NCBI RefSeq assembly: GCF_019798055.1
Contig: NZ_JAHOPH010000008.1
Coordinates: 1 to 64,000, forward strand
DNA: 64,000 bases
Source: Salsipaludibacter albus
GTDB taxonomy: Bacteria; Actinomycetota; Nitriliruptoria; Nitriliruptorales; Nitriliruptoraceae
Direction of reading: 5' to 3'
Under the pieces are notes generated by a model. The model was not told the origin of the DNA. It did not search any database and saw only the letters and a list, made by a program, of their open reading frames with translations. This document shows positions 11,034 through 57,081 of this stretch, one piece after another (the first letter of the stretch is position 1; the number at the start of each line of letters is the position of its first letter). The position numbers were made by a program, and so were the translations under genes.

Positions 11034-11271
11034 GATGTCCGCGGCCGATCGACTCGGCCACGAACGCCACGACAACCAAGATCGTGCGGCAGTCCGGACA
11101 CCGTCCACCACGCCGTTCGCGACCGATCGACGCGGCTCCCGAGGCCAGCAGTCGGCGATCGCACCCCGCCCAAGCCGTTCCCGACCGATCAACCCGGCTC
11201 TGAACGCCAACCGCCCGCGAGCTCCATCTCCCAACGCCGTTCGCGACCGGTCACTGCGCCCTCGAAGGTCA
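11034..11271. repeat. Intergenic array of four 36-base imperfect palindromes (array 1)
   Basis: Units at 11034-11069, 11112-11147, 11174-11209 and 11236-11271, separated by 42, 26 and 26 bases. Typical units begin GCCGTTC, have a CGACCGATC core and end near GAACGCCA. The first and last are more diverged. They sit in the 564-base gap 10927-11490 between divergent genes; apart from the array I see no gene there. The same end arms and length recur in arrays near 31.1 and 56.9 kb. Confidence 0.7.
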
Positions 11272-31100: not shown

Positions 31101-31345
31101 GGCGTTCGCCACCGACAGAGCCGGCACCGAACGACCAAATCTCCCGCCAACTGCCCTCTCCACGAGCCAGCCATGGCGTTCGACACCGACAGAGCAGGCA
31201 CCGAACGCCAGGCCAGCCCCTGATTGCGCCACAGCGACCTGCCCGTGGCGTTCGACACCGACAGAGCCGGCACCGAACGCCAGGACGGGCCCCGATGGCG
31301 CCACCGCGGAGCCACGCGTGGCTCGACACGGACGACGGCCGCCCC
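31101..31345. repeat. Intergenic array of 36-base palindromic units with 72-74-base period (array 2)
   Basis: Three near-identical units at 31101-31137 (one extra base in the right arm), 31175-31210 and 31247-31282, plus a degenerate one near 31320-31345. Each begins GGCGTTCG and ends CGAACGCCA (arms of 8), with ACACCGACAGAGC in the middle. The segments between units are 36-37 bases and are themselves related in the second and third gap (shared GCGCCAC-GCG), so the true unit is a tandem of about 73 bases. They fill the 364-base gap 31023-31386 between the kinase and M28 genes, both leftward. No gene, no cas genes and no leader seen. Confidence 0.75.
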
Positions 31346-31367
31346 CCGGGATCCGGGGGGCGGCCGT
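31335..31367 (-). terminator. Perfect 15-base-pair GC hairpin after the M28 peptidase gene
   Basis: Arms ACGGCCGCCCCCCGG and CCGGGGGGCGGCCGT flank a GAT loop, 20 bases beyond the M28 stop. No U-tract follows, as is common in GC-rich actinobacteria. It abuts the degenerate last unit of the palindrome array, so it may have disrupted it. Confidence 0.65.
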
Positions 31368-31386
31368 GGTCAGGATGGGGGTCGGG

Positions 31387-33102
31387 TCAGCCGACCTCCT
31401 CCTCGTGGTGGTGGCCGCCGCCACCGGTGCCACCGGTGCCGACGGTCCCGGCCGGGCCCGCGGGCTCGGACGGCAGGCGGAGCGGACGGATCGCCGGGAC
31501 GGGCTCGCCCTCGACCCCGTTGACCGACTCGGTGGAGTACGCCAGCTGCAACACCGCGAACGCGATCGCGTCGGCGTTGGTGCCCAGGGCGTCGAGGTTG
31601 ACGTTGCCGACCATGTCGTACTCGGCGTTCAGCTCGGCGTAGACCGCGGCGTCACGCGTCGGGTCGTCGTCGAACAGGTTGTCGCAGGCCAGGTGGTAGC
31701 ACGGGTCGTAGGACTCCCCGGTCACGCCACCCCAGATGGCCTCCTGTGCCGCGGTCTTGGGGACCTCGGCGCCGGTGAACAGGCCACTGGCCGGGATGTC
31801 GTTGTTGATGAACTCCTGGTAGTCGGAGCGACCCGAGAACTGGCTGTCCTCGTAGGGAACGCCACGCCAGGTGAAGAAGATCTCGAACAGGTCCTCGAGT
31901 GCCTCGGACCCCTCCGGCACGGTGACCGGTGCGGCGAAGCTCGACTCGTCGGCGTCGTAGACCCCGAAGATGAAGTTCGGCGACGCGATCATGTCGAAGT
32001 TGAGGTAGGCCGCGATGCGGTCACGCTCGGCGTCGGACAGCCCCTGGACGTAGTCCTCCGAGCCGACCAGGCCCTGCTCCTCGGCGGCCCACCACGCGAA
32101 GCGCAGCGTGTTGACCGGCTCGAGCTTGGACAGCAGCTGGGCCAGCTCGATGAGCGCGGCCGAGCCCGACCCGTTGTCGTTGATGCCCGGACCCGCCACG
32201 ACCGAGTCGAGGTGGGCGCCGGCCATGACGACGTTGTCGTCGTTGTCGCCGGGCAGTTCCGCGATCACGTTGAAGTCGGTCCGGGTCTCGATGTCGAGGA
32301 CCTCGACGAAGGCGGTCGAACCGGGCTGGGACAGCGCGACGCCGTCCGCGAAGCTCGCACCCACGACCGGGATGCCGTGGAAGATCGAGCTGCCGTCGCC
32401 CAGGGTGGACGCGTTGGCGACGATCAGGCCCTCGCGGTCGGGCGTGTTGCCCTGGTTGAAGATGATCACGGCCTCGGCACCCGCGGCCTCGGCGTTGGCG
32501 GCCTTGTCACCGAAGTTGCAGGTCCCGCGCTGCACCAGGACGATGTCGGCCGGACCACTGAGGTCGACACCGGCGAAGTCGGCGGCCTCACAGCCCGAGC
32601 TGCTGGCCCGCGGCGGCGTGAGGTTGATGTCGACCGGGACGACGTTGCCCGTCACCGTGCCCGAGCCGGAACCGGTGAAGGCACCGGTCGCGTAGTCGCC
32701 CTGGACGGGGGTGAGCTGTTCGAGGATGGCCGGGTAGACGAAGGTCGCGTCGACCGGGTCGAGCGAGACCTCCCAGCCGGCGGCCTCGAGCTGCTGGACG
32801 ACGTAGTCGACGCTGCCCTGGTAGCCCTCGGTGCCTGCGGCACGGGTCCCCGGGTAGGTCGGGTCACCGGCGGTGTCGGCGATCTCCTGGAAGGCCTGCT
32901 CGTGCTCGAGCACGCCCTCGGCGGTCAGGCAGTCGAGCAACTTCTGCAGGGTGTTGTTGTTCTGCCGGTCACAGACGTCGGCCGGCTTGGCGACGGCGCT
33001 CGTGGCCGGCACGACGGCCGCCAACAGCAGCAGTGCGAGGGCGACGACGAACGCGCGTCGACGCAGGGGTCCCGCCGTGGCGGCGGGGAGGGAACTGGTC
33101 AT
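31387..33102 (-). CDS. Secreted M28-family zinc aminopeptidase with PA domain
   Basis: 571 residues with an Arg-rich signal peptide (LLRRR-type start, AVVPATSAVAKP) cleaved near residue 40. A PA (protease-associated) domain follows near residues 130-240 (VLVQRGTCNFGDKAANAEAAGA). The M28 catalytic part has zinc ligands in AHLDSV, GINDNGSG, AAEEQG, NFDM and CYHLACD, the arrangement of Streptomyces-type aminopeptidases. It ends in a Gly/Thr linker and a natural HHHEEEVG tail. Probably an extracellular aminopeptidase feeding on peptides. Preceded by AAGGA, followed by a strong hairpin. Confidence 0.92.
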   Translation of the reverse strand: MTSSLPAATAGPLRRRAFVVALALLLLAAVVPATSAVAKPADVCDRQNNNTLQKLLDCLTAEGVLEHEQAFQEIADTAGDPTYPGTRAAGTEGYQGSVDYVVQQLEAAGWEVSLDPVDATFVYPAILEQLTPVQGDYATGAFTGSGSGTVTGNVVPVDINLTPPRASSSGCEAADFAGVDLSGPADIVLVQRGTCNFGDKAANAEAAGAEAVIIFNQGNTPDREGLIVANASTLGDGSSIFHGIPVVGASFADGVALSQPGSTAFVEVLDIETRTDFNVIAELPGDNDDNVVMAGAHLDSVVAGPGINDNGSGSAALIELAQLLSKLEPVNTLRFAWWAAEEQGLVGSEDYVQGLSDAERDRIAAYLNFDMIASPNFIFGVYDADESSFAAPVTVPEGSEALEDLFEIFFTWRGVPYEDSQFSGRSDYQEFINNDIPASGLFTGAEVPKTAAQEAIWGGVTGESYDPCYHLACDNLFDDDPTRDAAVYAELNAEYDMVGNVNLDALGTNADAIAFAVLQLAYSTESVNGVEGEPVPAIRPLRLPSEPAGPAGTVGTGGTGGGGHHHEEEVG

Positions 33103-56920: not shown

Positions 56921-57081
56921 GGCGTTCCACCCGGACAGCACCCGGACCGAACGCCGACGCGCCGAGCCGAGACCACCGCCCGGCGTTCCACCCTGACAGC
57001 ACCAGGGCCGAACGCCAACGAGGACCTCGACCTCCCCCGCCGTCTGGCGTTCCACCCGGACACCATCCGGACCGAACGCCG
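56921..57081. repeat. Intergenic array of three 36-base palindromic units (array 4)
   Basis: Units at 56921-56956, 56982-57017 and 57046-57081, separated by 25 and 28 bases. Each begins GGCGTTCCACCC and ends GAACGCC, so the arms GGCGTTC/GAACGCC pair over seven bases. They fill most of the 238-base gap between the ATPase gene and the crotonase gene, both leftward. Same length and ends as arrays near 11.1 and 31.1 kb, with a different middle (GGACAGCACC type). Confidence 0.75.

Follow-up and report, generated by a model that had tools for sequence, protein, structure and literature searches.

What are the short palindromes that recur in unlinked intergenic regions of Salsipaludibacter albus, and which cellular partner, if any, do they have? 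An earlier note on a 64,000-nucleotide stretch of this genome (the window) described palindromic units in three such regions. It took their conserved ends as a sign of selection on structure or of a protein binding the ends, and suggested a mobile palindrome family, a chromosome-organizing site or small structured RNAs. Here, we followed these units through the window, the rest of the assembly and related genomes.

Palindrome arrays in the window

The window contains three arrays, of which two are good and one is decayed (Table 1). The unit, GGCGTTC-N21-GAACGCC, measures 35 bp, or 37 bp if a common flanking T..A pair is included, and not the 36 bases given earlier. At 31 kb, three units with arms GGCGTTCG/CGAACGCC are spaced by 74 and 72 bp. 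Eight-base arms had been described as perfect throughout this array; this applies to units 2 and 3, but not to unit 1, the sole deviant (CGAACGAC, one mismatch). At 56.9 kb, spacings are 61 and 64 bp, and the ends GGCGTTC/GAACGCC are those of the 31-kb array with a different middle. Common ends with changing middles had also been claimed for the units near 11.1 kb; however, that array is a decayed relative in which no unit has both ends perfect. The 31-kb and 56.9-kb arrays are both intergenic. The 31-kb array is adjoined by a GC-rich 19-bp inverted repeat with a 3-nt loop (31331-31371), an ordinary terminator-like hairpin located just past the stop of a minus-strand gene (31387-33102).

Table 1. 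Positions of palindrome units in the 64-kb window
Feature	Position	Strand	Remark
Palindrome unit 1, 31 kb array	31101..31135	.	GGCGTTCG...CGAACGAC, one mismatch in last arm
Palindrome unit 2, 31 kb array	31175..31209	.	8-bp arms perfect
Palindrome unit 3, 31 kb array	31247..31281	.	8-bp arms perfect
Palindrome unit 1, 56.9 kb array	56921..56955	.	GGCGTTC...GAACGCC
Palindrome unit 2, 56.9 kb array	56982..57016	.	inner CCTG/CAGG vs CCGG/CCGG in neighbors (compensatory)
Palindrome unit 3, 56.9 kb array	57046..57080	.	
Decayed palindrome unit near 11.1 kb	11034..11068	.	
Decayed palindrome unit near 11.1 kb	11112..11146	.	
Decayed palindrome unit near 11.1 kb	11174..11208	.	
Decayed palindrome unit near 11.1 kb	11236..11270	.	

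A dispersed intergenic family

In the window's own assembly (G000, 4.25 Mb), GGCGTTC-N21-GAACGCC gave 40 exact matches compared to none for a reversed-pattern control, and a stricter pattern with up to three mismatches gave 61 (0 in the reversed control). With a covariance model, about 60 units in 26 arrays were detected. These palindromes are genuine and occur much more often than by chance. The earlier note had named a lack of further copies in the genome as a refuting result, and such copies abound. It had also proposed to see whether they lie only between genes: all 26 arrays occupy intergenic gaps, two of them touching a called gene end, with gene boundaries taken from a simple self-made gene caller. 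Neighboring genes are convergent for approximately 8 arrays, tandem for 13 and divergent for 5, and arrays often lie 10-60 bp past a stop codon. Thus, the statement that neighbors are divergent or in the same direction is correct for the window but not for the genome.

Spacing between units in G000 is 61-64 bp (usually 62) or, in a minority class, 71-74 bp (72). The previously proposed period of 72-74 therefore describes the 31-kb array, but not the usual arrangement. Corresponding spacers are 26-29 or 36-39 bp long, with one of 43 bp in the decayed array; they are mostly unrelated across arrays, and some recur inside one array (L034, L019, L029). Judged by eye and by the best-scoring strand, units of one array are co-oriented in most arrays. 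Their orientation relative to neighboring genes, assessed by eye only, leans weakly to sense, and we place no weight on it. A CRISPR array was considered and rejected, because the middles of the units are variable and because spacers in some cases recur within one array.

In pair counting over 45 G000 units, 27 cells were doubly changed, mainly in the inner stem, compared to 10.4 after shuffling (27 was reached in 0 of 500 shuffles); the outer arms are near-invariant within this genome. Covariation of inner pairs, together with the frequent location shortly after stop codons, would suit RNA hairpins at gene ends that act in termination or mRNA stability, any link to a particular gene being incidental. 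We regard this explanation as most unlikely: a fixed spacing (62/72) and arm symmetry are more in keeping with DNA than with RNA, five arrays have divergent neighbors, and at 31 kb the strong ordinary hairpin described above already follows the neighboring gene. In addition, a search of the window against Rfam at gathering thresholds gave no match to a known structured RNA family, and RNA hairpins do not predict the gene association described below. With no Rfam match and with such variable placement, the suggestion of small structured RNAs found no support.

A genus-mate (G001) has palindromes of the same architecture with GCCCTTC/GAAGGGC-type arms, a spacing of 62-63 bp and, frequently, one arm mismatch. 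Since the two species share the architecture and differ in arm letters, the arms change in step between species, which is the covariation that the earlier note had asked for. Array positions around one syntenic locus differ between these two genomes, indicating turnover. One G001 array (C69; L049:5347-5625) has spacings of 39, 39, 40 and 63, showing that units can be almost back to back. Only chance singletons of the GGCGTTC family were seen in 60 relatives. The strict pattern gave five single matches and no array in approximately 85,000 species genomes (three in Achromobacter, one in a Planctomycetales MAG and one in an Actinobacteria MAG), which we took as chance. Among the three suggestions made earlier, that of a mobile palindrome family fits best, the units being dispersed and extragenic, with turnover between genus-mates and arms that changed in step.

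Palindromes flank many DUF559 genes

Only one G000 gene was found with arrays on both sides, where two arrays of four units each enclose it. It is also the sole DUF559 (PF04480) gene in G000. G001 likewise has a single DUF559 gene, which is syntenic with that of G000 and is also adjoined by palindromes. The G001 frame (L054:404-1407) has a break that separates its N-terminal half from its C-terminal half, reflecting either decay or an assembly error, and the palindromes persist.

We gathered DUF559 genes across the class Nitriliruptoria, including that of G000, and compared their flanks with those of 232 control genes in 20 stretches, which came from genomes that carry DUF559 genes too; most genomes compared are incomplete assemblies. 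Palindromes with shared arms were present on both flanks of 11 of 40 DUF559 genes and of 1 of 232 controls (p=2e-9), and a word of at least 15 nt common to both flanks was present for 17 of 41 and 1 of 232, respectively (p=6e-15), with the reservation that loci within one genus are related and not independent. By eye, the DUF559 genes of G049 and G045 have a near-identical 40-nt palindrome and an identical 47-nt palindrome on each side, respectively, that of G047 has two units of 46-48 nt per side, and that of G021 has several 45-nt units per side at a spacing of about 73 bp. Relative to each other, the palindromes of the two flanks have either the same or the opposite orientation, and they are found downstream of the gene too. 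Genomes with any such gene have 1 to 4 resident copies. Across the class, many DUF559 genes have matching palindromes, specific to their species, on both flanks. The association between palindromes and DUF559 genes is almost certainly real.

Some observations count against DUF559 as the partner of the palindromes. About half of the tested DUF559 genes have no matching palindromes on both flanks, and palindromes persist beside two disrupted genes, the frame-broken G001 gene and an interrupted one in Euzebya pacifica (G055).

In the latter (L087:1-2005), an orthologue of the CGATCG-type DUF559 gene is apparently interrupted near its N-terminus by what resembles, by eye, an IS21-type transposition gene pair, and four palindrome units with a spacing of about 72 bp remain downstream. 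Euzebya belongs to the order Euzebyales within Nitriliruptoria. Elsewhere, in G039 (L080:2129-2243), two 44-nt palindromes with 20-nt perfect arms and a spacing of 71 bp are located away from the contig's DUF559 gene.

The DUF559 protein

The DUF559 protein matches AbiEi_4 (PF13338) and DUF559 in Pfam and is called AbiEi by PADLOC. In an AlphaFold2 model of the G000 protein (mean pLDDT 92.7), residues 1-207 match the AbiEi antitoxin 6y8q (Z 12.8), placing this part in the AbiEi fold and family. Residues ~208-315 of the model match 3hrl (Z 13.7), I-Bth0305I (Z 13.0) and Vsr (Z 11.1). D247, E258, H264 and D273 are invariant across 21 divergent proteins, and D260 is nearly so; predicted fold and conserved acidic and His residues together are those of an EDxHD/Vsr-like nuclease, and the active-site motif is apparently intact. 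As modeled, the protein joins an EDxHD (Vsr/I-Bth0305I-like) nuclease domain to an AbiEi-type winged-helix/antitoxin fold. No homologues were found in phages, and plasmids gave partial AbiEi or DUF559 matches only.

AbiEi proteins bind 23-bp inverted repeats (PMC7319586), and I-Bth0305I acts as a dimer whose target spans nearly 60 bp (PMC3943268). By analogy, palindrome binding could plausibly lead to cutting through these two properties. In a different explanation, the palindromes would be functional protein-binding sites: the AbiEi-like part of the DUF559 protein would bind arrays that are in helical phase, those next to its own gene being autoregulatory operators and the others architectural or regulatory sites, and the nuclease would serve another role, e.g., defense. 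AbiEi proteins autoregulate via inverted-repeat binding (PMC7319586), and symmetric 35-bp sites suit a dimer. In addition, spacings of several families favor a period of 10.35-10.4 bp and cluster near its multiples (p=0.004 in a cluster-level simulation, post hoc and on hand-collected values), a hint of double-helical phasing. On the other hand, about 8 of the 26 arrays in G000 have convergent neighbors, and many are just past stop codons, which is not operator placement. The presence of palindromes downstream of the DUF559 gene and the turnover of array positions between genus-mates argue in the same direction, and on balance we consider this explanation unlikely. The more general suggestion in the earlier note, of a protein binding the ends, fits the modeled AbiEi-like DNA-binding fold and helically quantized spacing and may be kept as a candidate reading.

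Dispersal and pairing of palindromes and proteins

We then selected palindromes solely for flanking a DUF559 gene and counted them genome-wide. With up to two mismatches, CACGATCG-N32-CGATCGTG occurred 60, 50, 57 and 54 times in G047, G042, G048 and G055, compared to 0, 1, 0 and 1 for the controls; a few of the matches listed look like chance, in coding DNA. For GTTGGGGA-N29-TCCCCAAC, 41, 61 and 19 copies were found in G021, G010 and G026 (controls, 1, 0 and 0), with a spacing of 73 in G021 and G010. Thus, as expected under the analogy with REPs, both DUF559-adjacent palindromes are dispersed families (19-61 copies; controls, 0-1). In the genus-mates G034 and G031, neither palindromes of the family nor a DUF559 gene were detected. 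G010 and G026, both incomplete assemblies, contained dispersed palindromes with no DUF559 gene detected, which counts against the partnership.

Palindromes and proteins appear to be matched. Three DUF559 paralogues in G042 are associated with three different palindromes (ACGATTGTGG, CGCGATCGGGGCC and GGTGTGTCG). Across 22 loci, similarity of the arms alone was greater for proteins of higher identity (Mantel rho 0.30, p=0.0002), and the correlation held for pairs below 50% identity (p=0.0004); an earlier Mantel test, which used whole units and included one wrong-frame protein, gave p=0.06. At an orthologous locus in G042 and G055, three neighbors are 92-98% identical and the DUF559 proteins 66%, and the palindromes have diverged. 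This pattern, an enzyme and its palindrome diverging among conserved neighbors, resembles that of RAYT/REP (PMC2817692).

These data also bear on the idea that the DUF559 gene encodes a homing-type nuclease and inserts next to pre-existing target palindromes, which it would neither make nor spread and which would expand by other means. Its nuclease domain groups with the homing endonuclease I-Bth0305I (PMC3943268), and some palindrome-bearing genomes have no detected DUF559 gene. However, DUF559 genes occupy orthologous places in relatives and diverge with their palindromes, pointing to residence and co-evolution instead of recurrent insertion, and such homing is quite improbable in our view.

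Relation to known systems

In the broad sense of the term, these palindromes are REP-like: they are short, imperfect, extragenic and present in many copies (about 60 units in 26 intergenic arrays in G000). A search for a RAYT transposase had been advised; Y1_Tnp (PF01797) had no match in G000, while control genomes gave matches, and the gene associated with the palindromes is DUF559 instead. The constant terminal tetranucleotide GTAG is absent as well, aligned units beginning with GGCG and ending with CGCC. Because neither the transposase nor the terminal tag was found, the system, which would work like a REP system, does not belong to the RAYT-associated families. As in BIMEs, units are regularly spaced (61-64 or 71-74 in G000; 73 in G021 and G010), but neighboring units do not alternate in orientation, being co-oriented in most G000 arrays.

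The likeness to REP/BIME elements and RAYT (TnpA-REP; PMC2817692, PMC8266576) includes palindromes of 20-50 bp that are dispersed, extragenic and arranged in regularly spaced arrays, as well as a resident enzyme gene that is flanked by palindromes, diverges together with them and evolves faster than its neighbors. In contrast, the enzyme here is an AbiEi-EDxHD protein, as modeled, and not an HUH tyrosine transposase, the units have no constant GTAG/CGTC tag, approximately 20-60 units per genome were found compared to more than 100 typical for REPs, and palindromes on the two sides of the gene occur in either relative orientation. CGTC-tagged REPs are also dispersed palindromes without RAYT and were reported without a dedicated enzyme (PMC3733652); the units described here differ in having no CGTC tag at their ends and an associated enzyme gene.

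With type IV toxin-antitoxin AbiEi proteins (6y8q; Rv2827c), the DUF559 protein shares the fold of residues 1-207, and AbiEi binds inverted repeats; here, however, this fold is fused to a predicted nuclease, and the palindromes are dispersed genome-wide and, at the gene itself, occupy both flanks and not just the promoter. The nuclease domain has the fold and the invariant D/E/D/H pattern of I-Bth0305I and Vsr in the model. Unlike these, the DUF559 gene is not in an intron and is resident in 1 to 4 copies per genome in carriers, and its nuclease role is a predicted one.

A candidate palindrome-enzyme partnership

We slightly favor the explanation that these palindromes form a dispersed, REP-like family with the DUF559 protein, a non-HUH enzyme distinct from RAYT, as its partner. 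That the protein recognizes its own palindrome is likely. The chances that its nuclease activity drives copying or homogenization of the units appear to be even or a little better. In the proposed mechanism, the AbiEi-like part would bind the palindrome and the nuclease would nick or cut at or beside it. Repair would then place copies of the unit at other intergenic sites, nearby or dispersed, and would homogenize arrays, and palindrome and enzyme would thereby persist together, as proposed for RAYT/REP. By this analogy, AbiEi-EDxHD (DUF559) endonucleases that recognize cognate palindromes and propagate or homogenize intergenic arrays may constitute a second, independent palindrome-spreading system in bacteria, an analogue of RAYT/REP with unrelated enzyme and chemistry; we see the case for and against this as evenly balanced.

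The palindrome-DUF559 association is strong. It also seems to be unreported, since nothing relevant linking DUF559 to palindromes or REPs was found in the open-license literature searched. Our data suggest a previously unnoticed enzyme that would recognize, and perhaps spread, intergenic palindromes. A concrete enzyme-palindrome pairing makes the question of how REP-like palindromes originate and persist directly testable, helped by the presence of different pairs inside one genome and by the availability of a cultivated host in at least one case, a genome that matches Euzebya pacifica. The pairing also provides a functional lead for DUF559 proteins of "unknown function" that have an AbiEi-like N-terminus.
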